A program made the position numbers and the translations under genes. This document shows, one piece after another, positions 42,278-61,174 of a stretch of 64,000 nucleotides of DNA (position 1 is the first letter of the stretch; each line of letters opens with the position of its first letter). The notes under the pieces are model-generated. The model did not search any database. It saw only the letters and a program-made list of their open reading frames with translations, and had not been told where the DNA came from. This DNA comes from [Chlorobium] sp. 445 (GTDB lineage Bacteria > Bacteroidota > Chlorobiia > Chlorobiales > Thermochlorobacteraceae): assembly GCA_002763895.1 (NCBI GenBank), contig NSLH01000013.1:1-64000 (forward strand), written 5' to 3'.

Positions 42278-42685
42278 ATGACCGGCAAAGTTGACAAGCG
42301 CAACGAAAAACTGCTCTCCAACATCCAACTCGATAACTTCGACTTTCTTGAAATACCCGAACTCTACATCTACTCAGGAGAGCTAACACGCAAGGAAGTG
42401 GCATATTTGCGAGAGCGTTTGGAAGAAATGCGCCGTGTAAGAGAAAACTGCGACTACGAATCGCAAGTTCGTATGCGCCAAGCTAATGAGCGCGACATTG
42501 CACATTACTTCGGCGAAATGCGCTATCGACGCTTGCAACTTCGAATGCAGATGAACCTTAAAGAATATTGCGAGCGCTTCATTGAAAGTTCCGAAGATGA
42601 AGTGATGTCGCGTTTTTCTCTGCGCCGCATGATGCGTCGCATTGAGCGTACCCTCTCTCGTTGGATTCGAAATTTGAATGGATAA
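42278..42685 (+). CDS. Small charged helical protein, unrecognised
   Basis: A 135-residue cytosolic protein rich in Arg, Glu and Leu and predicted almost all helical. The start at ATG 42278 is set by GGAGGA a few bases upstream; the open frame reaches back to 42194 but those residues look like non-coding. No transmembrane segment or catalytic motif is seen. The stop overlaps the next glycosyltransferase by 8 bases, so it may belong to the polysaccharide locus. Family not recognised. Confidence 0.7.
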   Translation: MTGKVDKRNEKLLSNIQLDNFDFLEIPELYIYSGELTRKEVAYLRERLEEMRRVRENCDYESQVRMRQANERDIAHYFGEMRYRRLQLRMQMNLKEYCERFIESSEDEVMSRFSLRRMMRRIERTLSRWIRNLNG

Positions 42686-43808
42686 ATCGCGCAAAAAGAT
42701 TTTGCTCGTCGCAAATACTTCGTGGTTTCTCTACAACTTTCGCTTTGGTGTTATCAGGCACTTTCAAGCTCAAGATGTTGAGACGGTTGCAGTTGCGCCC
42801 AGTGATGCTTATGCTCAGCGGTTACGCAATCACGGCTGCCGCACCATAGATGTTTTTTTACAGCCGCGTGGTATCAATCCGCTAAACGATGTGCGCTATT
42901 TCTGGCATCTTTACAAAATCTATGCAGATGAGCACCCATCCCTCATCATCCACTATACCATAAAGCCGAATATCTATGGCTCGCTGGCAGCCATGTTGCT
43001 GGGCTTGCCCTCCGTGGCGGTCGTGAGTGGTGCAGGACATGCCTTTGCGCACAAGGGTTGGCTCAATAGCATCGCCAAGCTTCTGCTACGAAAAGCTCTG
43101 CGTTATTCAAGAGAAGTGTGGTTTGTTAATCCCGAAGACCGTGCACTGTTTGTGTCCGAAAAATTGGTCAGTTCAGAAAAAGCGTATCTTTTCCCCGGAG
43201 AAGGGATTGATACGCGTCACTTTTGTCCGATGACAGCTAGCACACACACTTCGTCAAAGAAAATCGTTTTTTTGCTGAGCGCGCGACTGCTGCGCAAGAA
43301 AGGAATCGAGCTCTACGCTCGAGCAGCAAAACAATTAAAGACCAAATATCCACACGCTGAATTTCGCTTGCTTGGCTTTCTTTCGGCAAAAGATCCGGCG
43401 TTTGTCTCCAGAGATGAGATTGAGCGTTGGAAGGACTACATCAGTTATTTGGGTGAAACACAAGAGGTTTTGCCTTATGTGCAAGCAGCGGACTGCGTGG
43501 TGCTCCCATCGCTATATCGTGAAGGCACACCGCGCACATTGCTCGAAGCAGCAAGTCTTGAGAAACCTGTAATCGCTACTGATTCAGTGGGTTGCCGTCA
43601 GATTGTTGAAGATGGTGTAACGGGTTTCTTAGTGCAGCCCAACAGCGTGAGTGATTTGGTAGAAAAGCTCGAGCGAATAATCACAATGCCAGAGGCAGCA
43701 CGCTTAGAAATGGGCAAACGCGCACGGCTAAAAATGATTAAGGAGTTCGACGAATCTTTGGTTCTGCGGTGCTACGATGACATGCTGCGTCGGCTTAAAC
43801 TGCTCTAA
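42678..43808 (+). CDS. Family 4 glycosyltransferase (PglA/CapM-like)
   Basis: A 376-residue GT-B enzyme of the GT4 type. N-terminal Rossmann domain starts KKILLVANTSWFLYNFR, then HYTIKPNIYGSLAA and SGAGHAFAH. The C-terminal donor-binding domain has LLSARLLRKKGIELYARAA, VLPSLYREGTPRTLLEAASL, which spans about 270-290, with the E-x7-E motif. It transfers a sugar from a nucleotide sugar to a lipid-linked glycan; N-terminal likeness suggests the same group as N-acetylgalactosaminyl/galacturonosyl transferases. It overlaps the opposite-strand gene by 14 bases. Confidence 0.88.
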   Translation: MDKSRKKILLVANTSWFLYNFRFGVIRHFQAQDVETVAVAPSDAYAQRLRNHGCRTIDVFLQPRGINPLNDVRYFWHLYKIYADEHPSLIIHYTIKPNIYGSLAAMLLGLPSVAVVSGAGHAFAHKGWLNSIAKLLLRKALRYSREVWFVNPEDRALFVSEKLVSSEKAYLFPGEGIDTRHFCPMTASTHTSSKKIVFLLSARLLRKKGIELYARAAKQLKTKYPHAEFRLLGFLSAKDPAFVSRDEIERWKDYISYLGETQEVLPYVQAADCVVLPSLYREGTPRTLLEAASLEKPVIATDSVGCRQIVEDGVTGFLVQPNSVSDLVEKLERIITMPEAARLEMGKRARLKMIKEFDESLVLRCYDDMLRRLKLL

Positions 43809-44916
43809 CAGCTTTTTCCAAGGCTTCAAGCACGCATTGCGCAGTGTTGAGCCATGAAAATTTCTTTGCTTGCGCATAGCCGCTTGTCACAAGACGCTGC
43901 CGCAACATCTCATTGCTCCACATGTCAAGTAGCCGATGCGTTAAGTCTTCCATGGTGTCGTATCGCAGTGCTGCATCGCCTGCGGTCTCGGGCATTGCGG
44001 TCCGATTAGCAATAATCACGGGGCACCCGACATGCATCGCTTCCACAATCGGCATGGCAAACGACTCATAGCGGCTTGTCATCACAAGTGCAACTGCTGA
44101 CGCATAAAACGCCCGCAGGTCTTCTGACTTTACATACCGTGCGCAAAAAACTTTTGTGTCCAACGCATGTTGCTCAATGAAGGCATCAATTGCTTCTTGA
44201 TCATTGCCAGCACTGCCGACCATCACCAGTCGTAGAGCAGGATTTTCGACCAAAGCCGCTCGGAATGCAGATAGCAGTTCGATGTAGTTTTTATACTTGT
44301 GGCTAATACCGACACTCAAGAAAAATTGGTCAAAAGGCACAGCGTATTTGTGGAGTGTGGCGCAGCGTTCTTCTTCAGAAATCTTTACCTCAAAATGTGG
44401 TGCCGCTGCCGCTGGCGCAAGCAAAATGCGGGCAGGCTCTATACCGTAGTGCTTGACAAGGTCAGACTTGGCATACTCCGATACTGTGAGAATATATGCC
44501 GCTTGCTTGATAGCGTGTGTAATCATGGTATCAAGATACCATCGGCGGGGGCGTTCAATGAGTTCAGGATAAACTTTGATGAGCGCATCGTGGACAATCA
44601 CAACAGCAGGCACATGGCTTAACACAGGCTTAGTAAAGAAGGGATAGAGCGTAACATCAACTTGCATATCACGCAGTCGCTTCGGCAAGATAAGTTGCTC
44701 CCAGGCAATGCGGTGTGCGGTGCCATATAATTTTACTTTCTCACTGTTCATGCTACTGGATTCAAACCCACTAGCGAAGTGATATGCGGCATCAGTGAAG
44801 ACCGTGAAATGATATGCAGAAGGAACTTGAGCCAGCGCTTTGAGCAAATGATGCGTGTACAAACCTGTGCCGGCATTTTGATTTTTTAGGAGCAGTGCAT
44901 CGATTGCAACATGCAT
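43795..44916 (-). CDS. Family 4 glycosyltransferase
   Basis: A 373-residue GT-B enzyme. The N-terminus has HVAIDALLLKNQNAGTGLYTHHLL, and the C-terminal domain shows FFLSVGISHKYKNYIELLSAF, VMVGSAGN and VMTSRYESFAMPIVEAMHVGCPVI with the E-x7-E donor site. It is the last gene of the minus-strand polysaccharide operon, 4 bases after the preceding glycosyltransferase, and meets the plus-strand glycosyltransferase at a 14-base overlap. Substrate unknown; the group includes mannosyl- and rhamnosyltransferases. Confidence 0.88.
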   Translation of the reverse strand: MHVAIDALLLKNQNAGTGLYTHHLLKALAQVPSAYHFTVFTDAAYHFASGFESSSMNSEKVKLYGTAHRIAWEQLILPKRLRDMQVDVTLYPFFTKPVLSHVPAVVIVHDALIKVYPELIERPRRWYLDTMITHAIKQAAYILTVSEYAKSDLVKHYGIEPARILLAPAAAAPHFEVKISEEERCATLHKYAVPFDQFFLSVGISHKYKNYIELLSAFRAALVENPALRLVMVGSAGNDQEAIDAFIEQHALDTKVFCARYVKSEDLRAFYASAVALVMTSRYESFAMPIVEAMHVGCPVIIANRTAMPETAGDAALRYDTMEDLTHRLLDMWSNEMLRQRLVTSGYAQAKKFSWLNTAQCVLEALEKAVRAV

Positions 44917-44920
44917 CGTT

Positions 44921-46042
44921 TTAGCTTCTCTGAATTATTTGAAGAATATGACTAAGCCTTGTTGCAACGGATTTCCACTCGGCATCAGCACGCTGCATAA
45001 TCACACCGCTACGGAAGCGTTGCCATGTTTCATGCTCGACCACAATAGAGTGCATCGCCTCTGCCCAACCGGCAATATCATGCGTTGCAATTGTTCTGCC
45101 TTCTACACCATCAGCAAGCAGTGAAGTGAAAGCTTGTGTTTTGCTGGCTAACACTGGTATGCCAACGCTTCGTGCCCACTGCAAAACACCACTTGCAGAG
45201 ACAAATCCTAAGTCTGAATACGGCATCGCGAGCGCATTGACCGACCGCAAAAATGCCATAATCTCAGGCTCATCTAAATAGCCTCTGAACTGCACGCTGT
45301 CCGTAAGCGCATACTTTTGTACCAGACCTTGAACGCGCTGCAAGTAGAGCGAGCCTTTTCTCGTAATCGGTTCGCCATAAATGACGAGACGCGGACAAGG
45401 TTTGTTTTCTTTCTTCAGGCGATATGCAGCTTCAATCAAAATATGCAAGCCTTTATGCGGATTGATGTAGCCGAAGTATCCCAGCGTGGGTACGGATGAA
45501 GTTGGAGCAGGTGCGCATTCAGGCGGGTCAAGATACAGCAGATGCGGAACATAAAACACCTGCGGCACAAACGGAAAAAATCGCTTAAACTTTTCTTCTA
45601 AGATTTGTTTGCCAAGGGGCGTGAGTGTAACGAAGATGTCGCACTGCTGAATCATGTCTCGTTCAAGCGTCCAATCCAGTGCATCTAGAAAAAGGCGTCG
45701 CAGGGCGCGCGTCAATGTGAAGGCGGACATCTTTTCCAAGAGAGGCGTCATTTCAACGGCAAAGCGCGGTGGGTCATGAATAGTAATCAGTCGCCGCAGG
45801 TCTGGTCGCTGCTTTTTCTGACGGCGGAGTGCCTGAAAAATTTTGCCTTCGCCCACGCTCATCTCTGCCATGATGATGCTGTGCTTGGGCAGAGAGCGAT
45901 AGCATTGCTCAAACTCCATGTCATCGACACGGCGGAAGACAAATTCGGGAGCATATTTTTTCATCGCAGAACAAAGCAGGCTCGCATACTGAGAAATGCC
46001 ATTGAGAGGATGCAACTTCGGGGTAAGATAGATAATTTCCAT
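44921..46042 (-). CDS. Family 4 glycosyltransferase
   Basis: A 373-residue GT-B fold glycosyltransferase. Visible features are EIIYLTPKLHPLNGISQYASLL at the N-terminus, TLGYFGYINPHKGLHILIEAA at the start of the donor domain, RLVIYGEP and NALAMPYSDLGFVSASGVLQWA with a modified E-x7-E region (the first Glu is replaced by Ser/Gly-rich sequence). It starts 5 bases after the PorU-like gene stop, on the same strand, and its own stop is 4 bases before the next glycosyltransferase. The substrate cannot be assigned. Confidence 0.85.
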   Translation of the reverse strand: MEIIYLTPKLHPLNGISQYASLLCSAMKKYAPEFVFRRVDDMEFEQCYRSLPKHSIIMAEMSVGEGKIFQALRRQKKQRPDLRRLITIHDPPRFAVEMTPLLEKMSAFTLTRALRRLFLDALDWTLERDMIQQCDIFVTLTPLGKQILEEKFKRFFPFVPQVFYVPHLLYLDPPECAPAPTSSVPTLGYFGYINPHKGLHILIEAAYRLKKENKPCPRLVIYGEPITRKGSLYLQRVQGLVQKYALTDSVQFRGYLDEPEIMAFLRSVNALAMPYSDLGFVSASGVLQWARSVGIPVLASKTQAFTSLLADGVEGRTIATHDIAGWAEAMHSIVVEHETWQRFRSGVIMQRADAEWKSVATRLSHILQIIQRS

Positions 46043-46047
46043 TGCAG

Positions 46048-49000
46048 TCAGCGTACGATAGCAAGTCGCTCCGTTTTGGTAATCGTGCCTTTGGATGAGC
46101 GAACAACAACACGATAAAGATAAACGCCATTAGCAAGCAGATCGCCATCTTTATCACGTCCGTCCCAAGGAATGCGGTAGTATTCACTCCATCCTGCATT
46201 GATGACAGGCATAACATCAAGCTCCTGTACCAGCCGTCCAGCGATGGTATAGATAAAAATTTTGAATTCTGTAGGTCGTTCATCATCGGGGCTCGTGAGG
46301 CGAAAAGCAAATTCGGTTTTGTCCGAAAAGGGATTCGGGTAGTTGAAAAGATTTTCTACTCTGAATTCTGAGTCGACACGAAAGCGCACCACAGTGGAGG
46401 CGCTATCAGCAAGATTTCCAGCAGCATCGCGTATAGTGGCAAAGAGTGTATAGTCGCCGTCGGTAAGCGTTGGCGTGAAGATGGCAGTCGCAGTAGGGTT
46501 ATTCGCTGTAGCTGGTATAAAAGTCAGTTGCTGAGATTGGGCGTAGAAAATCGGGCGGCGATTGAGAAACACTCGAATGGCATTTGTGTCGGTAAGCGAG
46601 AGTGTATTATCAAATGCTCGAATCACGATGCGCGGACGCTGGCGAACTGTTTCACCGTTGCTGATGCGTCGTCCATCGAACTCAATGGTAGCGGTCGGAC
46701 GCACCGTGTCTGCTCGCACGAAAATGGAAAGGCTAGCGCGGTTGTTTTGCTTTGAGAGCTCGGCTAAACGTGAGTCAGGGTCGAGTTCCAGCGCAAGTGT
46801 TTGCAATCCAGTTTGCACAAAAGCAGGCAAGGTTATGGTGAGCGGATGTGTTGCGCCTGCACTTAGTGAATCGATTTGAAGGGTTTGCAGAGTTTGTCGC
46901 TGACCGGTGGGCAAGACGAGTGAGATGCGAACGGTGATGGAGTCAAGCCGTGCTTGACCTAAGTTTCGCACTTCAGCTGAAATCGATATAGGTTCGCCTG
47001 CGTCAAGAGAATCGTGCTCGGCACGGAAAGTGCGGTAAGAAATAGCTGCATCGCCGGCTTTGGTGTAAGTCAGACGCACAGTGGTGAGCTTGGGAGCTAT
47101 GCCTGTGTTAGTGTCACGTTGAAGTAATGCATGCAGTCGCAGATAGGGATACCGCTTTGCATCGATGAATGAGAGGTCTATACCAGCACTTTGCGTGGTT
47201 GTCAGAAGTGAATCTTCTTTGCCATCGAGACGCAGACCCAGCACGGTAAAGCGGGTTTGTGTGCGGTTGCCAGTGCTTTGCCACGAAAGCTGCTGCCAGC
47301 GCGAGGCTGGACCAATACGGTCGGTTGCAAAGCCGGCACTGAGGCGTTGAATCGTGATGGCGGTGTCAATGGTGGTAACGATTCCAGCAGAGTCGCAGCC
47401 CTGTAACGATGAAGCACAGCGCGTGCCCCATGCTTCGGCATAAAAACGGCGGTTTTTGAACCAATAAATGCCCACGATTCACGAAAGCGCAAATTGCCAA
47501 AGTGTTGGCTGCCGAGCTGCTCAAGGCGTTGACGAATGGGATTCATTGGCAGATCGCGTGTGTCGGGAATGGCATCGACCAGACTTATCAGCGCAAGTTG
47601 ATGCGGTGCCATATTATCGATTAAACGATTAAAGCGAGCGGGCAAGGAAGTATCAGGATTGATAAGTGTGTAGGGGAACATGGTCAGAAAGTCAAAGTTT
47701 TCTACGCGCGTTACACGCACAACTTGCGATGTGTCTAAGATGGCGATATTCAAGCCGCGCAATGGTCCGCGCGGTGGTGTGCTAAGTCCGATGACATCAA
47801 ACTGACGATCATCGCCGACAATAATTTCATAAAAAAGATTGGGTAATTGCGCGTTTAGTCCCACAGAGCGTACAATGAGCGGCAAGCGACCATCGCCATT
47901 GGTAAGACCGTCAGACACGCGGTTTAAGCCCACCAGTTGATTACGCCAGAGTTGTGAACCGAGCTGTTGCCATGCGTCTGCATCACTTGATTCATCGGAG
48001 AAGGTTACAGGCAAGATTTGCCATGGTGTTTCGTCAGAACCATCAAGGCTGCGGACGCGCCAGAAGTAAGGCACATTTGCAAGCGGTGGAAGATTGGGTT
48101 GCCACTCCGTCGTGTAAAGTCCTTCAGGTACATTAGCGCTGCGCTGACAAAGAGGGCTATCGAAGCGGTCGGTTGTATCAAGTTCAAATTGATAGATGCG
48201 CTCACTTTTGGGGCGTTCGCTTGGGTTGAGGACAACGAAACGAGGTGATAAGCGCAGCATCGTGCCAAAGGCTTGTGGCGTTGCAACAGCAACGGCATTT
48301 GTGAGTACATTGATACGCAACGAAGCGCGATTATTCTCTTTTGAGACTTCCACAATGCGATTGCTTTCATCGAGGCGAACTTCAAGGTCGTGTATGCCTA
48401 ATCTGCCTGAAAAATCCAATCTGACCACGATAGAATCGCGCAGACCAATCGGACGCAGAGTGGTATCGAGCACTAAAATTGGCGTTGGACTTTCTGCCCA
48501 GCGGTCATAGATGCGCACATTGACGCTATCACGAGTAGCTAAGCCATAGTTTGAGATGACAAGAGCAAGCGGCTGCAGGTCGCTTTCGTTGAGCACAGGA
48601 TTAAGAAATGTGAGTTGCTCGGGCGTGAGTGCCAAATCAGGCAAGGTGGCAAGTGCCATAGGTTCGGCGGGGTCGCCTTGAATGTTGTAGTGATCGATGG
48701 TGCCTTCCACAGCAGCGCTGAAAAAAGCAAATTGCTCGCTAAACGCACGATGCGCTGAAAACCAGATTTCGCCTGCGGTGCGCTGCGCATTTTGAATCGC
48801 TCGAAAGACATTCTGGCTCAGCATATGATCTAACGATGGAAAGCCCCAGCCGGCTGTTCCAATGAAGCAAAGTGCACCACCATTGGGTGAGAGTAGAAAT
48901 TGTTCGGTAAAGGATTTCCCGAAAGGTTCTGCAAAGCGACCAGTGTTACATGTCCAACTCAGCACGAGCGGATAGCGACCACGATTTTGCAGTGTGAGCG

Positions 49001-51593
49001 GATCGCCAAGGGCAAGGTCCCAGCTGTTTGAGCCGGCGTGTCCAATGTAATGCACTAGAGCGGCGCCTGTTGCCATAGCGTTACGAATCTGCGACTCGAG
49101 TTGTGTACTGATAAAAGGATTTTGGTCGTCGCGATAGAGCGTATCAGCTCTGCCAGCGATTGGCGGCGGTATGATGAAGTTAGAGATAATGCTGTTAGAG
49201 TAAGTGCGAAAAAGTTGCTGCTCCAGCAAATTGAATCCACCATTGACAAAAAGAAAATTCTTATGCCATGCTTCTGCTCTAAATGGTTGGCTATCGCCAA
49301 TGAGCTTGCGCAGATATGTTTCAGCTTCAGCGACGCTATAGACAGGAATGCGCCCAATCATCATTTTTGGAATGTTGCGAAAGCGTCGAGTTGGGGCATT
49401 ATCGAAACTCACAAACCAGATGTCGCTAACGGGCTGTCCATATGTTGGTACAAGTGCAGGGCGCGCTCGTGAAACAGGCAGGTTGCCTTTGAAGTCGCGG
49501 TTGGCGCCACCGAAGAGCAAGACATAGCGCGGTTGTGGTGCGCGCCAGTTCTCAAAAGCATATTTCAAAAACTGCCGAATCGCTATAGGGTCATAGAGGC
49601 CGAAATTAAACTCATCATAAATCTGCTCGGTCTCTACAACTTCAACGCGATAACTACCGCCTTGAGCTGAGGCGCGATGCGCTGCCAAACGACTTGCTTG
49701 CTCGCAAAAAAGCGGATGCGTGATGATAATGTAATCAGCAGTGCGACTGGGATTGCGAAGTAACGGCTTTGCGTTATGTAGCCGAATAAGCGGGCGATAA
49801 AAATTTCGCCGCTCGGCAAACACATAAGTTTTGTTTGCTTCAACACCGATGCGCAATCGCTCGACACTTTGAGCTGTGATAGTTAGTCGAACAGTGTCAG
49901 TAAGGTTGTAGAGTGTATAGTCGCTATCCTGTATGCCTGCAAGCTCAAGATCTTGGGCGGCGTTATCGGAGGCAAAAAAGAATTGACGTGATGCTGTGGG
50001 CAGCGTGAAATTGCGCGGGAAAGAAAATTCAATCCAGTCTAAGGCAACAATTGCAATGCTGGTCTGGGCACTTGTGCGTCGCAGACGATAGAGCAGTTGA
50101 TTTTGTCCATTGCGCAGCACTGCAGCGTTGAACGATAGTGTATAGACATTAGCTCCCCTGCTCGAGAGTGAGATTGAACCAATCGATGTGCCGTTGAGAA
50201 TAATTTCAAACTCTGCGGTGCCAGAAGTGGTATGCGCAAAACGCACAGCGGCGCGTGCTGTGCCAGCGCTCACTACGCCTTCAAGTTGAAAAGTAGTCTG
50301 TGCCGTGTCGATTGGCAGAGAGGGGTTAGATTGAAAATACCGCTGCGCCCAACCTTCACCGAGCACACGCTCAGTAACATACTGACCTTGCTCTGTAAGT
50401 GCAGCGACATAGATACAATCTTGCTCAATGCGATGTGTGGCAAGAAAACTTTGTGAGAGCGCAGTGCCTCTTGGCGTTGCAGTTGCCGTTACCACACGCC
50501 GACCTTGCGTACCGCCCCATGTAAGCCAATAGACATTGGTATCGCTGTACACATTTCGTAGCTCTGTAACACTGCCAATCACATTGCCTGTAAATTCGTC
50601 CAGTACAGGCTCGGGCGTAGCACGATTAAAGCTGCCAAGAAACTCGATTTCATCGTTTGCATCAAGTCGCCCATCTTCTTCGCCGCGCACGAAAATCGGT
50701 AGTTCTTTGCCCTTGTAAATGAGTCGCAAAGTACGTGGATTGATGCCCGAAAGACTGACTCCTGCTGCTGCAATCTCAGCACCAGAGAGGCGATAGAGAC
50801 CATCTTCTGTGGTCAGTAGTTTGAGGTAAGGCTGAGAAGGATTATACCAATTTGCGGTGCTATCACTTGCTATGCTCATAACTTCGGGCAATGTAGAAGA
50901 ACTGACTCGGAAGGCTTTGGCTTCGTTGTAGTTTAGCAGATGTTGGCAAAGAAATTGCTCATCGAGAAAGCTATGTGTGTGCGGTTGAACCAGCGTGTTG
51001 GAGTTTGGGGCTTTTACAATCGACCAGTTGACTTCTATCAAGCGATGCCAGCGCAGTTCCTTTCGTGCAGCTGAATACTGCAGCGGTGCAATTTGTACTT
51101 GCGCCACATATTGTGTCCCCACATAGAAGTAACGCACAACATTTGCTATCGATGCCGGCAGAAAGTCTGCCGAAGCATAAGCTGCACTGTTTTTAAGTCT
51201 TTGTGTGATATTACTCTCTTGCAGTAGGGTATTGTCACTTGCTACAGGCGCTAAACGAATATTCTGCTTGGTTTCCCCTGCAAGACGCTTTGCTGAAACT
51301 GTAAGTGTGGCACCAGCAGGCAGACCAATGTAAATGGATTTGACCGGCACAAACGGCACAAGTTCGTATGAGGACATAGCTTTAAGTGCCGCTTCAGGCA
51401 AATGTCCTGCATCAAATTCAGCGTAGAAGAGTTTTGTGCTACCAATCGTTTCCTCTCTTAGACGTAAATCATAAGTTTGCACAAAGGTTTGACCAGAAAA
51501 CTGCTCGGTGGGTTTAGGTTGAGCGTAAAGAAGAAATGGAAACAGCGCAACGCAGCATAGCGCAAGCCTTTTCACAATAAGCACAATACGCAT
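46048..51593 (-). CDS. porU: PorU-like gingipain-fold sortase with T9SS-type C-terminal domain, one frameshift
   Basis: Frames 47202-51593 and 46048-47475 become one 1848-residue protein when one base is added to the A5 run at 47442-47446. A signal peptide (LALCCVALFPFLLYAQ) opens the protein at ATG 51593. The peptidase C25 domain has LLFGGANRDFKG, the catalytic His852 in HYIGHAG and Cys882 in SWTCNTG. After it come Ig/CARDB-like repeats (SKENNRASL; SKQNNRASL) and a C-terminal FlgD/T9SS type A-like sorting region (NYPNPFSD, GVYLYRVVVRS). PorU removes C-terminal signals from secreted proteins and joins them to anionic LPS. ATG overlaps the ligase stop (TAATG). Identity versus another C25 peptidase is inferred. 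Confidence 0.85.
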
Positions 51594-52962
51594 TAGGCAA
51601 TTTTCACAGTTTGAGATAGCGTGAGAACTTTTGCTTGCAAGTTGAGCCATCCTATCATCACCCCTATGGCAAGCCAAAAGTGAACGGCAACCAATGAACC
51701 AAGCGTAAAAAATAAGGTCAAAATGACCACAAATAAACCCAAGAGTATGATGCCGTGCGCTTTACTCGTCTCATCTGGAGCGCTTACAGTGTGAGTGAGT
51801 AATGCTTTCAAAAGTTTTGCAAGAGCATAGAAAAAAACGCTGGCGCCCACAAGACCTGTCTGTACAAGTACATTGATATAGATGATGGAAACTGCTTGCG
51901 GTGTGGCATCTACGCTTGGCGCATAGATTTCAAAGAAGTAAGGAATAAATGGACCAATGCCGATAAGGGGATGATCAAGAAAAATTCTCAGTCCGACTTT
52001 AGCTTGATGGAATCTTGCAACGCGCGACACAGCAGAGATATCCGTCTCTTCAGCAAAAATTTTTGCAGAAATGCATTATCTATTGCGCTAAGCACAAACT
52101 CGCATTGCCCAGCGAATGTGATGACAAGCAGGATAGCGAGCAGTGTGAGGAGGGTTGTTTTGATAACTTGCCGAAGCGGATAGATGAGTATCGGTACAAG
52201 CAGAGCAAAAAGTATCATGCCCACCAAAGCCGATGTCGAAAAAGAAAGTAGCAGCGCCACGATATTAAGCAGAAAAATCAATTTGAGCCATTGCGGCAGC
52301 GACGAGCGTTTCTCACTCGACTGCCACTGCATGATAGCCATCACGGTCAGTGGAAGGATAATGCTAAGATATCCGCCATAGGGACCGGGCTCAAAATAAG
52401 TGGAGGCAAAGCGGACAATGCCACTCTCAAAAAAAATTCCGCGCGGCGCATCAGGGCGTTCAATAATTCTGTTGAACTGCAGTGCTTGAATTTCAAAGCT
52501 AAATAAAAAGCTAAAGAGTTGATAGAGTGCATAGAGTGCTGGAAACACTGACCCGAGTGCGGCTACTGTTAAAACTGTTCTCAACCCATTTTGCACTTCT
52601 GTAATGAAGCGAACCACTTGCCAGGCAAAAAGCATATTGAGCAACAGGTAGAGATTGATAGTAAAGCGTGAGCTATCCAGCGAACCGATGTATTTCAACT
52701 CAGGTAAATCACCAAAGTTGAGTAGTTCAATATACCCTGCAATTTCAGCGCATACGCTAATGAGAAAGAATGCTAACCCGAGCTTTTGCCACTCAGACAT
52801 AGATTGATTTTCACGCATGTCCAAGAGCGAAAGCGCACCAAGCAGGAGCAAGAGCAATTGATAGGTTTTTAGACTGATACCAGCTATGGAGACATAAAGC
52901 AACTGCTGCAAAGGAATGGTGAAAACAACTGTCAGCAGTACGGCGTAGCGAAGGGTGTTCAT
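51593..52962 (-). CDS. O-antigen ligase/polymerase-like membrane protein, one frameshift
   Basis: Two frames (51988-52962 and 51593-52030) give a 456-residue multi-spanning protein if one T is added (A5 at 52055-52059 on the plus strand); the join reads LQKFFAEETDISAVSRVARF. About 10-12 membrane helices are seen, with a periplasmic loop, and the Wzy/WaaL-type motif region around FEPGPYGGYLSIILPL and, after the shift, HQAKVGLRIFLDHPLIGIGPF, typical of the O-antigen ligase superfamily. It could ligate O-antigen to lipid A-core or polymerise repeats; sequence alone does not decide. The start at ATG 52962 overlaps the preceding GT2 stop by four bases. Confidence 0.82.
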
Positions 52963-54011
52963 GGGTACTGTCGCATTGCGTCCCAAATTGCTTGTGCCTG
53001 TGCGCGCCGACCGTTTAGCCATTGACGAAAAAAAGATAGGACAAGCCGCAGATAAACCAGTGGCAGAGACTGCGGATAAAACTTGCGCACAAATTTAATC
53101 CGACTGCGCGTTGTATAAAATACCGACATTGCACTCCACTTTCTCGGTGTATTACCAACGCTTTGCCCGCTTTTGTGGTAGACAATACTTTTTTCGGCAT
53201 ATCCTAACCTAAACTGTCCATGAGCCCGCATAGTCCAATCTAATTCCTCGAAGTAAAGAAAATACTCTTCGCTCATCAACCCGACTGTTTCTAAAAAAGC
53301 CTTTGAGACCAGCATAGATGCGCCCATGACATAATCCATTGAGGCGCAACACTGATGACGATGTTCAGACGGGAACTGCTCAAGGGGCTGATTTTCAGCG
53401 ATGTGTGAGGTCAGACCGAACCACTTGTTGTAGTGTCCGCCTCCAAGCGTTTGAATCAGCGTCGGATGGTGATAGTAAAGTAGGGTTGAGCCGCAAAGTC
53501 CGATGGTCGTGTCTTGCAAGGCATGCTCAACGAGGTTCAGCAAGGCGTCGGGTGCAACAACGGTATCGCTGTTGAGAAGCCAAATGTAGTCAAAGTCGCC
53601 TTTGGCAAGTGCATAGCGTAAGCCAATGTTATTGCCAGCAGCAAAGCCACGGTTCTCACCAGTTTGAATGAAGATGAGTTTTGCATCGTGTTCATCTGCG
53701 CTGAGTGCAGACTCAACATCGGCGCAAGTGTACTCACAGTAAGTGATTGGTTTGTCAATTGGTGGGTAAGAATATGAACGCAGTGCGTTGTGCGGTGGTG
53801 TCCACACCGAAAGCCGCCCGGTTGCCCATTGCTGAATGTGCCAAAGCGAATCATCGGTTGAGCCATTATCACACACAATGACACGATAGTGTGGATAGTG
53901 CAGGCGAAAGACACTCTCCAAGCACTCAATCGTATCTTGCCAGCCATTCCAGTTCAGCAGCAGAATATAGACTTTTGGAAGGCTATCGTGATTTAATCGG
54001 CTGTGATACAT
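52959..54011 (-). CDS. Family 2 glycosyltransferase
   Basis: A 350-residue GT-A enzyme with KVYILLLNWNGWQDTIECLES, VCDNGSTDDSL, GFAAGNNIGLRYAL, WLLNSDTVVAPD (metal-binding D-x-D-like) and FLYFEELDWTMR, as in rhamnosyl- and galactosyltransferases. A short basic tail follows (HKSGQSVGNTPRKWS). The start at 54011 overlaps the previous GT4 gene by 19 bases. It is cytosolic or membrane-bound and adds a sugar to the lipid-linked repeat. Confidence 0.9.
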   Translation of the reverse strand: MYHSRLNHDSLPKVYILLLNWNGWQDTIECLESVFRLHYPHYRVIVCDNGSTDDSLWHIQQWATGRLSVWTPPHNALRSYSYPPIDKPITYCEYTCADVESALSADEHDAKLIFIQTGENRGFAAGNNIGLRYALAKGDFDYIWLLNSDTVVAPDALLNLVEHALQDTTIGLCGSTLLYYHHPTLIQTLGGGHYNKWFGLTSHIAENQPLEQFPSEHRHQCCASMDYVMGASMLVSKAFLETVGLMSEEYFLYFEELDWTMRAHGQFRLGYAEKSIVYHKSGQSVGNTPRKWSAMSVFYTTRSRIKFVRKFYPQSLPLVYLRLVLSFFRQWLNGRRAQAQAIWDAMRQYP

Positions 54012-55093
54012 TGCTCAAATTTTTTTACAGCACTCTCCCAAGTAAATCGTTGGATATACTGATGTCCATTCATTGCAAGTTGAATACGGAGTTGCGGATT
54101 TTCAATGAGCTGCAAGATATTTGCTGCCAGTGCCTCAGGCTTTCGAGGTGGAGAGAGTAAAGCCGTCTGCTGATGAATGCCGTAATCAGTGTGACCACCA
54201 ATCTGTGTCAGACAGACAGCTGCACCGCATTGCATGGCTTCAGCAGGTGGTAAAGCCATACCTTCTACCCAACTTGGACTAACAAAAATTGCTGATGCGT
54301 TGTAGAGCTCACATAACTGACGCTGTGGCGGGTTTTGGACATACTCTATCCACGCAGGTAGATTGGGTGGCGCATTGGGTGTGCCAAAAAGACGCACAGT
54401 AAGTGTATCAACAGTTTGTTTAACGATGTTCAGTGCGGCAAGACCATCTGCTGAGCCCTTCCAGGGCATCGTATGATACATCATGATAACCGTTGTGGGC
54501 GAGCGTCTGTCAATAGGGTGCATAAGTGAAAAGTAGCCATCTTGATAATCCACACCCTGCGATACCCAACAAGCGCTTTCACCTCTGGAAGCCAAGAACG
54601 TCTGTAGCCACTTTCCCGTAACTAATTTTTTTAGGGGTAATTTCCATGTGGCTTGTGCGCGCTGTGATAAGACGGGGTCGCTGGTAAAGGCGGATTCATC
54701 GTTTTGAATTAAATAAAATTTTCGACCTTTAGAGTCAGGATAAGCAGCTGCCCATTCGGCACTCTCCCAAGCTGTAGCAATCACCACATCTGCGTCAGGA
54801 ATCCAACGCACATCCAAACTCGGTCTCCAAAGCAGTCTTACGCTTTGTGCAAGTCGTATCCATTGATCGGGCTTGTAGCCGCCTTTGTAGCCCAGACTTC
54901 TCAAAAGAAAAAGTAGAGCGCGCTTTATCTTATGCTGACTTGTAGCTTGCCTGTCGTAAGGCACGTTGCCAGTTGCTGCAACAAGTGTTACACAATGCCC
55001 TCTTTGCGCAAGCCGATTCGCGTATTCTATCACAACTTTCAAACCACCTACGGGATTATAGAGCGGCATTGGGCACAAAAAGGTAATCTTCAT
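53993..55093 (-). CDS. Family 4 glycosyltransferase
   Basis: A 366-residue GT-B enzyme starting at ATG 55093 (MKITFLCPMPLYNPVGG), chosen because it overlaps the flippase stop by four bases (ATGA) and gives the normal GT4 N-terminus. The C-terminal domain has TTVIMMYHTMPWKGSADGLAAL, VRLFGTPNAP and FVSPSWVEGMALPPAEAMQCGAA with the E-x7-E donor site. The substrate is unknown. It belongs to the coupled polysaccharide operon. Confidence 0.88.
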   Translation of the reverse strand: MKITFLCPMPLYNPVGGLKVVIEYANRLAQRGHCVTLVAATGNVPYDRQATSQHKIKRALLFLLRSLGYKGGYKPDQWIRLAQSVRLLWRPSLDVRWIPDADVVIATAWESAEWAAAYPDSKGRKFYLIQNDESAFTSDPVLSQRAQATWKLPLKKLVTGKWLQTFLASRGESACWVSQGVDYQDGYFSLMHPIDRRSPTTVIMMYHTMPWKGSADGLAALNIVKQTVDTLTVRLFGTPNAPPNLPAWIEYVQNPPQRQLCELYNASAIFVSPSWVEGMALPPAEAMQCGAAVCLTQIGGHTDYGIHQQTALLSPPRKPEALAANILQLIENPQLRIQLAMNGHQYIQRFTWESAVKKFEQCITAD

Positions 55094-56385
55094 CTTGCCA
55101 CACGAGACCAACGATGAGTATTCTTCGGTAATGAAAACCACAAATACAAAGCTGTAATGATGGCTTCACCTAAAAGAGTGGATGCTGCTGCAGCAAGCGT
55201 GCCATATGCTCTAACCAGCAAAAGCGATAGCATAATGCTTGCCAGCGATCCCGTTAAGCAACCTGTCATCACTGCCGTGTCTTGTTTATTCACAATTAGT
55301 GTGTAGGCATAAATTTGACCAATAAAGTTGATAAACTTTGCGCATGCAAGAAACACAAGTGGAAAAGACCCACCAGCAAATTCTGCCCCAAAGAGCACAT
55401 CATAGATGATGGAACTCGAGAGTATCAACGCGCCTGTGGGCACAATGCCAATTGCAACGAAGAGCCATAGCATGTTGCGGCGCTCTCTGTTGAATACTGC
55501 TTCACCTGCTGCATGGCACTCGACAAAACGCGGCAAGAGTAAATTATAGAAACTACTAAAAACCATGTCCAATGCCCCAGCGATGATGAGCGCGCTACGA
55601 TAAGCGCCAATTGCTTGCTCAGGGACAGCTGTGGAGAGAATTAAGAGCTGAAAGTTCGTGTAAAAAAATTGAGCAACCGCAACCAGCCAGTATTTCCAGG
55701 ATGTTCCAAGCAGTTGAAAGACACGATGTGTATGCAGTTTTGGTGAATGTGAGGGAGCTATGATCATTGAGGCAACGAGCCATGTTGCAGCCGTGGATAG
55801 CACATTCAAGCCAACAAAAACGACTAAATCAGAACCTAAGGGCATTTTTGGCAAAAAAGTTGAGTAGATGAGCGCAGTCAAGAGAGAGCTGATTGCCGTA
55901 ATGAGATTTAGTGTGCGCAGTTTCCCCAAGCCTTGAAAAAAATAGACAAGATTGAGTGCGTTGCATAACAACAAAACTGCACCAAGTTGCCACACTGCCC
56001 ACTGTTCTGCCGAGACAAGCAAGCGTGTGATAATCACCCAAAGTAAGGCAAGAAGTAGGGCAATAGACAAACGAAATCTTGCCACAGCAGTCAGTAAATT
56101 GCGCGACTGAGCAGGATGTTGTGCAATTTCACGCGAGACAATAGGGTCGAGTCCGCCGTGAAATAAAAGTGAGACCTGCATTGCCCAAGTTATGATGATG
56201 CCAGAGACACCGAAGTTTGAAGCGCCGACACACTGTGCAGCAAACGCACTTGCCACAAAACTCACTGCTCTCGAAGAGATATTCAACAGCGAAATACTGA
56301 CGCCCTCTCGCATCAAAGATGATGAGCCTAAGTGAGCAGCCTTTTGCATGAGTAATGCCAGACACTTTTTACACGTCTCAATCAC
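55090..56385 (-). CDS. Wzx-type polysaccharide flippase (second copy)
   Basis: A 431-residue MOP-superfamily flippase with about 12 membrane helices. N-terminus SISLLNISSRAVSFVASAFA then GASNFGVSGII is typical. It would move the lipid-linked oligosaccharide across the inner membrane. It is a clear paralogue of the flippase at 57368: both have the SFVASAFAAQC/AFFASAFAAKC segment, the LxFHGGLDPIVSREIA/LYQLGLDTVATRRIA block and a similar ending. Its stop overlaps the next gene's start (ATGA). Two flippases may serve two different glycans. Confidence 0.88.
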   Translation of the reverse strand: MIETCKKCLALLMQKAAHLGSSSLMREGVSISLLNISSRAVSFVASAFAAQCVGASNFGVSGIIITWAMQVSLLFHGGLDPIVSREIAQHPAQSRNLLTAVARFRLSIALLLALLWVIITRLLVSAEQWAVWQLGAVLLLCNALNLVYFFQGLGKLRTLNLITAISSLLTALIYSTFLPKMPLGSDLVVFVGLNVLSTAATWLVASMIIAPSHSPKLHTHRVFQLLGTSWKYWLVAVAQFFYTNFQLLILSTAVPEQAIGAYRSALIIAGALDMVFSSFYNLLLPRFVECHAAGEAVFNRERRNMLWLFVAIGIVPTGALILSSSIIYDVLFGAEFAGGSFPLVFLACAKFINFIGQIYAYTLIVNKQDTAVMTGCLTGSLASIMLSLLLVRAYGTLAAAASTLLGEAIITALYLWFSLPKNTHRWSRVAR

Positions 56386-56426
56386 GCTTTCTATAAAGTT
56401 AAAGTGAGCCCTATCTTAAGAGGAGA

Positions 56427-57371
56427 TTATTTTTGGAACACAATGACAAGTGTGTGACCAAGCAATGGCTCAGCTGCTAATTCCTTTTGATTCATGGCAG
56501 AAAGAAAATTGGAGAATTTGACGATGAGACGCGTCGAAAACCGCAGGTCTACAGCGCAGCGATAGCTTGGGGCAAAACGGGCTCTCAAGCGGTCAAAAAA
56601 CATTGCTTCTCTATACCATTGCCAATGGACATGTGGCAATGGCTCAAACGCCACAGCACACACTTTCAACTTAAATTGATAGCCAATGTGTCTCAGCGCT
56701 GCTTCATTCCAGCGCGTAACATGATGCGGTGGAACATTGTAAATGTGATTAAGAGTCTTCCCAATAAATCCATCATCATTTGGAACTGAGAGAATCAAGT
56801 ATCCATTGGCTGAGAGCAGCGCCAACATTTTTTCAAGGAAGGCTTTTGCATCTGCAACATGTTCCAGCACCTGAAAAGCACAGACCACATCAAATGCGGA
56901 GTATTGACGTTCAACCATTTGCTCGAGCATGATATTTTCCACGTTTATTCCTGCAGCCTGCGCTGCCACGACCGCCGCGGGGTTTGTTTCTATGCCAAGA
57001 TAATCGGGATGCTTGGAAGACAAAAATTTTGCAAATGCACCATCACCGCAGCCGACTTCTAAGACACGTGCAAAAGGCTTGATAAAATCAGCAGCAAGTG
57101 CAAATTCAAATTTGTGTTCCTCATAATAATTTCCTTTCAACTGCAATTGCTGATAAAATAAAGCCGAGCCACAGACTGCAGGATAAAAAAACTTCACGCA
57201 GGAGTGCGGAGCATAGTAAAACCCAAACTCCGCAATGCCCTCAAACTCCGATGAGACATCAAGCCCGATGCGTCGGTACAGTTTTATGACATCTAACGAC
57301 GCAATCCGTTGTAGCAATTCCACCTTCGTGCTATAAGTTAGCGGACAGCGCGGCACAGTTGTAGCACTCAT
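56427..57371 (-). CDS. SAM-dependent methyltransferase (class I)
   Basis: A 314-residue enzyme with RVLEVGCGDGAFAKFL (SAM-binding), the acidic GIETNPAAVVAA loop and VVCAFQVLEHVADAKAFLEK, as in Methyltransf_11/23 proteins of polysaccharide loci. The N-terminal ~95 residues are an extension without a known fold. The start codon is embedded in the upstream flippase stop (ATGA). It could methylate a sugar of the O-chain or a capping residue, but the target is not shown. Confidence 0.87.
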   Translation of the reverse strand: MSATTVPRCPLTYSTKVELLQRIASLDVIKLYRRIGLDVSSEFEGIAEFGFYYAPHSCVKFFYPAVCGSALFYQQLQLKGNYYEEHKFEFALAADFIKPFARVLEVGCGDGAFAKFLSSKHPDYLGIETNPAAVVAAQAAGINVENIMLEQMVERQYSAFDVVCAFQVLEHVADAKAFLEKMLALLSANGYLILSVPNDDGFIGKTLNHIYNVPPHHVTRWNEAALRHIGYQFKLKVCAVAFEPLPHVHWQWYREAMFFDRLRARFAPSYRCAVDLRFSTRLIVKFSNFLSAMNQKELAAEPLLGHTLVIVFQK

Positions 57372-58687
57372 CTGACATTGCGTTGAAACATCTTCACCCA
57401 GATGACGGAAGCCACGTTAATCAAGACCTCGCCAGTTGCAGCGCTCCATGCTGCCCCAAGCGCCCCAAGATTTGGAATGAGAACAATGCTTAGCCCAATG
57501 CTCGTAGCGGAGCCGATAACGCAGATCATCAAAAAATCAAGATCGCGCTTCATGGCTACAAGCGTTTGCACATACACTTGGGCGATAAAACCTGTAAGTC
57601 GGGCTATGGCTAAGATGCGAAACGCTTCAGCACCTACTAAAAACTCACGACCTAAAAACACATCATAGAACACTGGTGAAGCAAACCATGCTACAAGCAC
57701 AATTGGCACGCTCATCGCTCCAAATAACCAGAAAGCACGCTGCTGCTGCTGCCTCAAAATCTCTTGTCCCTGTTCTTTCCACACCACAATACGCGGCAAG
57801 AGCAGGAGGTAGAAACTTTGTAGAAAAAAATCAAGACCTAAAATCAAGCTAAATGCGGTGCGATAGATGCCAGCTTCACGTGTGTTAGAGAGCATTTCCA
57901 CGATTGGAACTTGAAAGAACGTAAAAAGTCCAGTAACCAACGCCGTCAGAAAATACTTCCATGATTCACTGAGAAGCTCTGGCAGCAGCGCACGCGGCGT
58001 ACGAAACAGTGCCATGGAAATCGGAGCGCGACCAAACTCACGCCAGTATGCCAGCCAACTCAGTGCGACAACAACTGCAGTCGATGCAAAAGTGAAAGCC
58101 AAATCCAACCCTGCAGGTGCCCCCGGCTTGAAGATGAGAAAGATACCAATAGCAGAAAGGGTGGTCGCAAGGGCTTGAATGCCGTTCAGAACAGGCATCT
58201 TTTCAATGCCCACAAAGACAAAGTGAAGGAGTGAGGCGTTTAGCCAAAGAATGAGACTTGCCAGACACCATGCTGCTCTGCGAGGTTCATCTACTATAAG
58301 CCACACCGCAACGTTCCAAATCAGCATCATAGCACTTGCCACACATACTCGAAGTGTAACGATGGTCTCAACAAGTTCGCGTGTGCTATCGGCATATTTG
58401 TTTGCAGCGATGCGACGCGTTGCTACAGTATCTAGACCGAGTTGGTAGAGTATGCCAATTTGCAAGGCGGTGGTATGAGCGACACCTGAGATGCCATAGT
58501 TCAGTGCGCCCATACACTTTGCGGCAAAGGCAGAAGCAAAGAAGGCTAAGACTTTGGAGAGACTGTTAAGAAGCAGGCTCAGTGAAGCATGCCGAATAAA
58601 CTGTGATTCATAAAGCCGCTTTAGCACTGTAAGCGTTTTCGCATATAGAGAGGGCTGCGTCTCATGTGGCTCTACGGGAAGGCTCAT
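57368..58687 (-). CDS. Wzx-type polysaccharide flippase (first copy)
   Basis: A 439-residue MOP-superfamily flippase with about 12 membrane helices, beginning LLLNSLSKVLAFFASAF and GALNYGISGV after a cytosolic N-terminus of about 35 residues. It overlaps the OstA-like gene stop (ATGA) upstream and the methyltransferase start downstream. Compared with the copy at 55090 the core is similar in order and length, but sequence is diverged, so the duplication is not recent. Confidence 0.88.
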   Translation of the reverse strand: MSLPVEPHETQPSLYAKTLTVLKRLYESQFIRHASLSLLLNSLSKVLAFFASAFAAKCMGALNYGISGVAHTTALQIGILYQLGLDTVATRRIAANKYADSTRELVETIVTLRVCVASAMMLIWNVAVWLIVDEPRRAAWCLASLILWLNASLLHFVFVGIEKMPVLNGIQALATTLSAIGIFLIFKPGAPAGLDLAFTFASTAVVVALSWLAYWREFGRAPISMALFRTPRALLPELLSESWKYFLTALVTGLFTFFQVPIVEMLSNTREAGIYRTAFSLILGLDFFLQSFYLLLLPRIVVWKEQGQEILRQQQQRAFWLFGAMSVPIVLVAWFASPVFYDVFLGREFLVGAEAFRILAIARLTGFIAQVYVQTLVAMKRDLDFLMICVIGSATSIGLSIVLIPNLGALGAAWSAATGEVLINVASVIWVKMFQRNVR

Positions 58688-60055
58688 TGAACGGGTTTTT
58701 CGGTTTCACGCCACTGGAAGCCGGGCAAGTTCAAATCTTTACGAAAGAGCAAACGTTCGGGGTATTGCTCACCTTCGACATCGCCACGAATTAGAATGCG
58801 ACGCACACGGTTGTTTTGAAAGTAAATGCTAATCTCATCGCCGCTTGAGGCATTAGCACCGCGTGGTTTGGAACCGTCGTAAGTGTAATACAAGCTCCGT
58901 GCTTGCCGATAGACATCCGCTTGTTGAATGCGCGAGCTATCATCAAACATAATCATCATATTGACACCAGAGACCTGACTGAACTTCAAGCCTGTTTTAT
59001 CCAATGAATCTTTTGAGGCAAGAAACGCATTGCGATAGACAAAGACTTTCTCAATGCGCAAATTTTTTGCCACGCTCTTTGAGCTGCACCACGATAGAAT
59101 CCCCCGTGAGTTGAGAGCGTTCAAACCAGACAATGGGATTGCCGAACAGTAAAATTTTTTGGTCTTTAAGTCGATAGATAGCGTTTTTAGCTTTGGCGTA
59201 GAGCTCTCTGCCCCAGCGAATGCGCACGCTGTCTTGCATCTCAACGCGCTGCACACTGTCTTTTTCGCCGCGATACGAATCCATGCGTGCAGCACGAATG
59301 AAGAGTGTATCAATTTTGCCGCTTTGTGTGCTATCGATTTTCGTAAGCAGGGGTTGTTCAATGATGAAACTGTAGCCGCGTGTGTTGAAGTGTTCAGCGT
59401 ATCCGCCGGTGATGGTTGTATTATCGGCTAAATTCATAAGACGCACATTGCGAAAAGCCTGTGAGCGAGCATCATTGCGAAAATAGACCAGACTATCGCA
59501 GAAGACCATTTGCACACTATCTTTGAGCGAGACATTGCCACTGAAAACGGCGCGCCGTTCATTGCTGAAATAAATCCCTGAATCGCTTTTGAGCAAGACT
59601 TTGGTATCGGAGAGCGTTACATCTTTTTTGAGTTCAGAGCGTCTTTCATCAGGAAAATAGAAGCCCTCGTAGCCAGTAATTGTAACAGTATCGCGCACAA
59701 TTTTGACATTGCTGACTACACGAATTTTGCGTGTGGTCAGATACTGCAGAGCTGTGTCGCACTCGACGGTGGTGGTGCTCTCTCGGAAGAGGACATTGCC
59801 GATTGCGGAGCGAAATTCTTCGCGTAGGGGGGGTGAGAAGGTGCTATCTAAAAACTCTCCGCCTGAAACTTCATCTGCCCGCTCCAAGATAACAGTAACA
59901 AGTTTGACGGTATCCTGTGCAGCCGTTGGCTTTGAACTTGGCTGTGTTTGTGCGCTGGCATGCAAGTGCAAGCACAAAGCAACCACGAGACTGAGTAACA
60001 TGCCTACATGAATCCACCACGAAGTATTATTTTTGCACGCCAATTTCTTTAACAT
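58684..60055 (-). CDS. OstA/LptA-like periplasmic protein, one frameshift
   Basis: Frames 59051-60055 and the later part of 58684-59361 join as 456 residues if one base is removed from the A3T6 run at 59060-59068; the join reads LKERGKNLRIEKVFV. A signal peptide (LLSLVVALCLHLHASAQ) precedes repeats of the OstA type: VVSNVKIVRDTVTITGYEG, YFSNERRAVFSGNVSL, IYFQNNRVRRILIRGDVEG. These beta-jellyroll units carry lipopolysaccharide across the periplasm. It heads the operon and is 15 bases from wecB on the other strand; an ATG at 60001 would lengthen that gap. A terminal OstA-like domain is in the shifted frame. Confidence 0.82.
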
Positions 60056-60070
60056 AAACAGAGTTCAGAC

Positions 60071-61174
60071 TTGCGAAAACTGATTTTAGTTGCAGGCGCG
60101 CGGCCTAACTTTATGAAAATTGCACCCTTGCACCGCGAACTGCAAAAATCTCGAAACTATCACTCCATCATTCTCCACACAGGGCAGCACTATGATGAAA
60201 AAATGTCCAAAGTCTTCTTCGAAGACCTTGAGCTGCCGCAACCTGATATTTACTTGGGCGTAGGCTCAGGCTCGCACGCCGAACAGACTGCAAAGATAAT
60301 GGTCGAATTCGAAAAAGTGCTGCAAAAAGAAGTCCCCGATATGGTAATTGTGGTCGGCGATGTCAATTCTACCTTAGCCTGTTCTATCGTTGCAGCAAAG
60401 ATGCTGGTGCCAGTTGCACATGTCGAGGCGGGACTGCGTAGCGGCGATCGAACCATGCCCGAAGAAATTAACCGCATTGTTACCGACAGCATTTCGGATG
60501 TGCTTTTTGTCAGCGAGCCTTCTGGGCTACATAACCTAATCAATGAAGGTGTGCCCGAGGAAAAAATTTTCTATGTGGGCAACATTATGATCGATAGCCT
60601 TGTCTGGCACATCGATAAAGCAAACAACTCCAAAATTCTTGAAGAATTAGGACTTTCACCCAAAAGTTATACGCTGGTTACCCTGCATCGCCCAAGCAAT
60701 GTTGATGAAAAAGAGAGCCTTGAGAAAATCCTGCGAATCTTTGAGGCTATTGCAACGAAGTCAAAAGTTGTATTCCCGATTCACCCGCGTACGCGCAAGA
60801 TGCTTGAGTCTTTCGGACTGATGGAAAAAGCGCAAGCTATCTCGGCGCTGAAACTCATTGAGCCACAAGGCTACATTGAGTTTTTGAAACTCATGAAAGA
60901 AGCATCGCTTGTGCTGACAGACTCAGGTGGCGTGCAGGAAGAGACCACTGTGCTCGGAGTGCCTTGCCTAACGATGCGTGAAAATACCGAGCGCCCGATT
61001 ACAATTGAAGTTGGTACGAATTTGCTCGTTGGCACCGATGAAGATGAAGTGCGTCGGGCTGCACTCAAGACGCTGAGCGGACATGTCAAACGTGGTAAAA
61101 TTCCGGAAAAGTGGGATGGGCGCACCGCAGAGCGAATTGTCAAACATCTCAATGAGATTTTTTCAACTTGGTAG
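60071..61174 (+). CDS. wecB: UDP-N-acetylglucosamine 2-epimerase (non-hydrolysing)
   Basis: A 367-residue WecB/MnaA converting UDP-GlcNAc to UDP-ManNAc in the cytosol for surface polysaccharide or enterobacterial-type antigen. Motifs: GARPNFMKIAPL, LHTGQHYDEKMS, GDVNSTLACS, HVEAGLRSGDRTMPEEINR, LHRPSNVDE and TDSGGVQEE. The start is a TTG at 60071, because the motif GARPNF must be included and no ATG lies upstream in frame. The close divergence from the polysaccharide operon suggests shared regulation. The stop overlaps the next convergent gene by 12 bases. Confidence 0.95.
   Translation: MRKLILVAGARPNFMKIAPLHRELQKSRNYHSIILHTGQHYDEKMSKVFFEDLELPQPDIYLGVGSGSHAEQTAKIMVEFEKVLQKEVPDMVIVVGDVNSTLACSIVAAKMLVPVAHVEAGLRSGDRTMPEEINRIVTDSISDVLFVSEPSGLHNLINEGVPEEKIFYVGNIMIDSLVWHIDKANNSKILEELGLSPKSYTLVTLHRPSNVDEKESLEKILRIFEAIATKSKVVFPIHPRTRKMLESFGLMEKAQAISALKLIEPQGYIEFLKLMKEASLVLTDSGGVQEETTVLGVPCLTMRENTERPITIEVGTNLLVGTDEDEVRRAALKTLSGHVKRGKIPEKWDGRTAERIVKHLNEIFSTW

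Follow-up and report, generated by a model that had tools for sequence, protein, structure and literature searches.

A PorU2-type C25 peptidase gene in a glycan operon of [Chlorobium] sp. 445, and a possible second type IX attachment system

Introduction

In Porphyromonas gingivalis, the C25-family sortase PorU of the type IX secretion system (T9SS) uses a Cys/His dyad to form a thioester with its cargo, and the cargo is then moved to an amine on anionic lipopolysaccharide (A-LPS) that is delivered by PorZ (PMC10202324). The A-LPS pathway comprises Wbp/Vim, WbaP, GtfC, GtfF, VimF and WaaL together with PorU-PorV-PorQ-PorZ; in it a glycan that is built by glycosyltransferases (GTs), flipped and ligated is joined to T9SS cargo by the sortase (PMC13086638, PMC10202324). 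According to a 2025 study, the Bacteroidota may have several linking-sugar pathways between them (PMC11969387).

Here we analyse a 64,000-nucleotide (nt) stretch of [Chlorobium] sp. 445 (contig NSLH01000013.1, positions 1 to 64,000; hereafter the window), in which the gene of a C25 cysteine peptidase lies between a Wzy_C ligase gene and a GT gene within an operon for a lipopolysaccharide (LPS)- or O-antigen-type glycan. A layout of this type is proposed here, from genes, to resemble the P. gingivalis pathway in that a sortase of the C25 family would attach T9SS cargo to a GT-built, flipped and ligated glycan; it is unlike that pathway in that the sortase gene lies inside the glycan operon, which was so for PorU in none of the 20 PorU loci that we examined. 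We know of no description of a P. gingivalis-type sortase gene within a glycan operon. An earlier note on this DNA had likewise called the layout undescribed as far as its author knew, and a literature search whose scope leaves out subscription papers and preprints agrees: the layout is absent from the titles and abstracts on PorU paralogues with glycosyltransferases and on C25 peptidases with polysaccharide genes, and the name PorU2 appears in no paper of the searched literature, the family being named in NCBIfam.

Results

The C25 gene occupies 46048-51593 on the minus strand and encodes, when intact, a protein of about 1845 amino acids (aa). Pfam matches, read with the intact copy of a same-genus genome (G125), divide it into a C25 propeptide, a C25 domain that keeps its His and Cys (motifs GHAG and WTC), CARDB repeats, an ILEI/FAM3 domain, Big_13 and a FlgD-type C-terminal domain (CTD). 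The best model for the protein is NCBIfam PorU2 (NF052324, 'putative type IX secretion system sortase PorU2'; cut-off 450), which matches the frameshifted front piece with 431.4 bits (7e-129) over nearly the whole length and the back piece with 39.8 bits; the intact same-genus copy scores 434.6 bits and two same-family copies 453-456 bits. The PorU model (NF033707) gives 259.8 bits for the front piece and 81.5 for the back piece, short of its curated cut-off of 420. A maximum-likelihood tree built from 63 C25 domains has one 100/100 branch with all 42 PorU2 domains on a single side, and another such branch with all 20 PorU domains likewise together; the window protein groups on the PorU2 side, which includes seven members over the NF052324 cut-off, and the catalytic His and Cys are retained in every row of the alignment, including all 42 PorU2 rows.

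The model score and the tree together rule out that the window protein is PorU, and the naming of the protein as PorU-like in the earlier note fails on the same grounds: about 260 bits against a cut-off of 420, a separate 100/100 clade, and a real PorU on another contig. That canonical PorU, one of three C25 proteins in this genome, lies on contig 40 with no glycan genes around it and scores 943 bits with the PorU model. Judged by its sequence, the window protein is instead a PorU2-type protein just under the curated cut-off, from a clade sister to PorU. It resembles PorU in its C25 propeptide, its C25 domain with His and Cys, its T9SS C-terminal domain and its association with the T9SS; it differs in length (about 1850 against about 1370 aa), in carrying ILEI and CARDB domains, and in lying in a glycan operon, whereas the commonest neighbour of PorU is PorV. 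The third C25 protein of the genome (L005 5427-9860, contig 19) has a PorV-like gene directly downstream and no glycan genes, and a similar arrangement, also lacking glycan genes, is seen in other Chlorobiales-like genomes (L127, L128 and L129).

The association of PorU2 with glycan genes recurs across many Bacteroidota families. We chose forty PorU2 loci by family and score, with their neighbours unseen, which together with the window locus gave 32 usable loci outside the high-scoring group, and took twenty further PorU2 loci for replication; a locus was counted as linked when at least two glycan genes lay within ±4 genes. By this measure 22 of the 32 discovery loci and 19 of the 20 replication loci are linked, against 0 of 20 canonical PorU loci in the same genomes and 0 of 20 T9SS-cargo loci of this genome, where the 138 neighbours included one glycan gene. 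The Fisher p values (3e-7 and 3e-10) overstate the significance, since related genomes are not independent; in the combined set, 11 of 17 families have at least one linked locus. Because some of the discovery loci had themselves gone into the GT profiles, the replication loci and a Pfam scan of PorU neighbours weigh more; that independent scan of 80 PorU neighbours found 15 PorV and only 2 GT2 genes. (A first Pfam set of 80 genes covered just the 20 loci in which runs could be seen, and was biased; the later locus count is unbiased.) The window's order also includes a family, by its looks Chlorobiaceae, with no C25 match at all.

The commonest partner of PorU2 is a WecG/TagA/CpsF transferase (PF03808) encoded directly upstream, often with a 4-nt overlap, and a WecG-type GT lies within ±4 genes of PorU2 in 30 of 52 loci; in the window's own Chlorobiales-like family, the Wzy_C ligase takes its place as partner. 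A search for conserved ligase-PorU neighbourhoods had been proposed as a check on the earlier idea: the linkage of PorU2 to glycan genes is conserved, with the ligase as partner in the window's family and a WecG-type GT as the usual one, and PorU itself shows no such linkage.

Several other genes recur near PorU2. T9SS type A CTD proteins are encoded directly downstream in three loci (L068 13898-16585, L053 6525-7247 and L072 13762-14436), one of these proteins having a Ycf48-like repeat region; they are possible dedicated substrates. A conserved gene of about 440-450 aa lies one or two genes downstream in several families (L070 13745-15064, L067 13746-15092, L076 13816-15174), and the one copy that was scanned, in L070, has no Pfam match. 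Apart from PorU2, a different C25 protein of about 1900 aa, with a CTD and lacking ILEI, is found in L121, L122, L130, L132, L134 and loci like them (families f10 and f33). In L121 it is preceded by genes for a DegT aminotransferase, a bacterial sugar transferase and a PglF-like dehydratase and followed by GlmS and two kinase-like genes, with neighbours of similar size in the other loci; it is possibly another sortase, beside an amino-sugar pathway.

The ILEI/FAM3 domain (47455-47760, minus strand; its end meets the frameshift) matches PF15711 with 37.9 bits (2.7e-9; cut-off 27). A profile of this region is present in 38 of 42 PorU2 proteins and 0 of 20 PorU proteins, is absent from the genome's third C25 protein, and recurs in 19 of the 20 replication PorU2 loci; one PorU2 of 2398 aa (L071 169-7365) has two such domains. 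Among PDB entries, those found with the alignment are FAM3B (6.6e-25), FAM3C, FAM3A, the POMGnT1 stem (5.9e-20) and a cell-surface hyaluronidase. The AlphaFold model of the G125 domain has a predicted local distance difference test score (pLDDT) of 84.6 and a predicted template modelling score (pTM) of 0.83, and in a fold search it resembles FAM3B (TM score 0.67) and POMGnT1 (0.63-0.65). The POMGnT1 stem and FAM3C bind N-acetylglucosamine (GlcNAc; PMC9802357). Because profile and fold both lead to these known GlcNAc binders, the domain in PorU2 would by analogy have a glycan-reading role, although the sugar binding was shown for animal proteins and the domain here sits on a bacterial C25 peptidase.

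The genome encodes a T9SS: we found SprA (1335 bits), six PorV-family matches, PorZ, PorU and about 30 CTD proteins, i.e. the other T9SS genes and the proteins with matching C-terminal domains that had been named as a check on the earlier proposal, and the possibility that the T9SS is absent is ruled out by SprA and the CTD proteins. Since all of these components are present, PorU2 would here be a second enzyme. Six genomes of three genera in another family (f34; G345, G329, G310, G195, G199 and G386) have SprA (1555-1747 bits) and neither PorU nor PorZ over the curated cut-offs; their best match to the PorU model is a PorU2-type gene, seemingly the sole PorU-like enzyme. Of the genomic evidence, this family speaks most strongly for PorU2 being able to act as a T9SS sortase, although transpeptidation is not proved thereby, and its lack of PorZ would fit a glycan-binding role within PorU2 itself.

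The operon runs on the minus strand from 60055 to 43795 as ten co-directional genes, whose order and strand are those given in the earlier note; the names used here are backed by Pfam matches and blast clusters. An OstA/LptA-like LPS-transport protein of the OstA_2/LptD_N type comes first (58684-60055; PF13100 OstA_2 1.4e-16, PF03968 2.3e-11), followed by a Wzx-like polysaccharide flippase (57368-58687; PF01943 1.8e-10), an S-adenosylmethionine (SAM) methyltransferase (56427-57371; PF13489 3.4e-20) and a second flippase (55090-56385, ATG start probably at 56349), which shares a blastp cluster with the first and matches a flippase profile built here. Then come a GT4 glycosyltransferase (53993-55093), placed in a GT4 cluster and in a set dominated by GT4 families, a GT2 glycosyltransferase (52959-54011; GT2 cluster, 69% identity to its G125 counterpart), the O-antigen ligase/polymerase (51593-52962; PF04932 on the C-terminal piece), the PorU2-like putative sortase, and two GT4 glycosyltransferases (44921-46042, 69% identity to G125; 43795-44916, GT4 cluster, 65% identity to G125). 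With a flippase, several GTs and a Wzy_C ligase/polymerase all present, this is an operon of O-antigen/LPS type.

At five of the nine junctions the sequence shows an ATGA or TAATG overlap, the kind of joint that had been noticed earlier for most of the genes: ATGA joins the OstA-like gene to flippase 1, flippase 1 to the methyltransferase, flippase 2 to GT4 and GT2 to the ligase, and at the ligase/C25 junction a TAATG at 51595-51591 places the C25 ATG at 51593 with one base in common with the ligase stop, so that the reported overlap of start and stop is real. The GT4/GT2 junction is a 19-nt overlap, the methyltransferase and flippase 2 are separated by 41-77 nt, and the C25-GT4 and GT4-GT4 spacings are 5 and 4 nt. 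A divergent neighbour on the plus strand (60071-61174; PF02350 7.8e-111), a WecB-like UDP-GlcNAc 2-epimerase, is the sole donor-sugar gene recognised beside the operon and may be part of the system; a convergent GT4 glycosyltransferase (42678-43808, plus strand; PF00534 2.5e-28) lies at the other end.

Three of the ten genes are not open as assembled and continue in another frame, which the earlier note overlooked. The OstA-like gene has two overlapping frames (59051-60055, then 58684-59361; break within 59051-59361), the ligase is read in 51988-53022 and then 51593-52030 (break at 51997-52063), and the C25 gene in 47202-51593 and then 46048-47475 (break at 47442-47457); the ligase and C25 frameshifts adjoin runs of A or T. 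In G125 the ligase and the C25 protein are intact (479 and 1845 aa, the ligase matching PF04932 with 2.9e-12), and tblastn alignments with G125 cross both breaks at 63-73% identity, for which reason the frameshifts are probably assembly errors rather than decay. G125 also keeps the exact order of the core block GT2-ligase-C25-GT4-GT4, and because this order is kept and the linkage recurs across many families, the layout is more than chance.

Discussion

A far-reaching reading is that a widespread second T9SS attachment system exists, in which one operon supplies both a glycan made for the purpose and the sortase that goes with it, PorU2, which would read that glycan through a FAM3/POMGnT1-stem-like domain; the system would act beside PorU-PorZ or, in some lineages, instead of it, and would attach a different set of proteins to another anchoring sugar. 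This reading is tentative, and we give it a probability of roughly 0.42. The explanation that we prefer is narrower, namely that a single transcript yields the proteins that make and export an LPS- or O-antigen-type glycan together with a second T9SS sortase, which is of the PorU2 clade and dedicated to that glycan; the odds for it seem to us somewhat better than even.

Under this explanation, the GTs and the methyltransferase would assemble an undecaprenyl-linked glycan, which the flippases would translocate and Wzy_C would polymerise or ligate, with the OstA-like protein aiding transport. PorU2 would pass first through Sec and then, by means of its own C-terminal domain, through the T9SS. 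At the surface, by analogy with PorU, its C25 domain would remove the CTD from certain cargo by way of a thioester on Cys and pass this cargo on to a glycan amine, and the linkage and the FAM3-like domain both point to the glycan of the same operon as the acceptor; the domain would hold this co-produced glycan in place, and so may do in cis part of the job that PorZ does for PorU. Co-transcription, glycan binding, transpeptidation and the identities of glycan and cargo are what we infer from these genomes. The earlier proposal that glycan and sortase are co-produced as one unit gains from the conserved linkage with its controls and from the FAM3/POMGnT1-stem-like domain, while the attachment of cargo to the operon's own glycan is part of that inference.

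Several observations weigh against this explanation. The linkage is not universal: genus g2, which belongs to the same family as the window, lacks it, and it is found in only one of the seven loci that score highest with the PorU2 model; in four of those seven (L060, L062, L063 and L066) the PorU2 gene comes right after a member of one sequence cluster, which in L060 was identified as PorV2 (NF052325). This suggests a separate PorV2-PorU2 pair among the high-scoring loci: NF052324 members above 550 bits frequently come after PorV2 and in most cases lack glycan genes, whereas the window-type loci, whose proteins fall in the clade of these high scorers, have them. No PorV2 partner was found next to the window C25 gene, and the best NF052325 match in this genome, on another contig, reaches 233 bits (cut-off 325). 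The window has no obvious gene for the synthesis of a linking sugar with an amine, and the linking-sugar genes of an A-LPS-type pathway were not found here. POMGnT1 contacts its glycan with known Arg/Asp/Arg residues, and the likeness of the PorU2 domain to FAM3 was established at the level of profile and predicted fold; the window copy of PorU2 is frameshifted. Finally, the function of PorU2 is read from genomes, and the protein may be a mere protease or a surface glycan-binding protein.

This last thought leads to an alternative that is unlikely but deserves real weight, namely that PorU2 anchors or organises surface glycans through its FAM3-like domain, with the C25 domain serving only to mature PorU2 itself or acting as a protease on other proteins. 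C25 peptidases such as the gingipains are ordinary proteases, and the FAM3-like domain and the operon linkage would be expected under this explanation too; it is harder to reconcile with the catalytic His and Cys kept throughout PorU2, and with family f34, where PorU2 is the sole PorU-like enzyme beside SprA and the CTDs need some processor. PorU2 might also use the canonical A-LPS-like acceptor of PorU, e.g. for a subset of cargo, the operon being merely its usual neighbourhood. The presence of both PorU and PorZ in this genome and the sister relation of the two clades speak for such sharing, but at least two glycan genes are never found beside PorU and usually beside PorU2, and the FAM3-like domain occurs in PorU2 alone, so we regard a shared acceptor as improbable. 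That the C25 gene simply landed by chance in a large, recombinogenic glycan island is largely refuted by the controls and seems to us very improbable: although the gene content of the island varies and the island is absent in genus g2, 19 of 20 blind replication loci are linked against none of the 20 PorU and 20 cargo loci, a WecG gene lies directly upstream with overlaps in many genera, and the five-gene order is kept in the sister species.

Should the acceptor of PorU2 indeed be the glycan that its own operon makes, the anchor sugar of T9SS cargo could be read from the neighbouring genes alone in dozens of uncultured lineages. The attachment system would then also be a compact, two-part one, a glycan operon and a sortase with a built-in glycan reader, and the FAM3-like domain would represent a bacterial relative of a domain that reads glycans in animals, carried by an enzyme that possibly acts on glycans.

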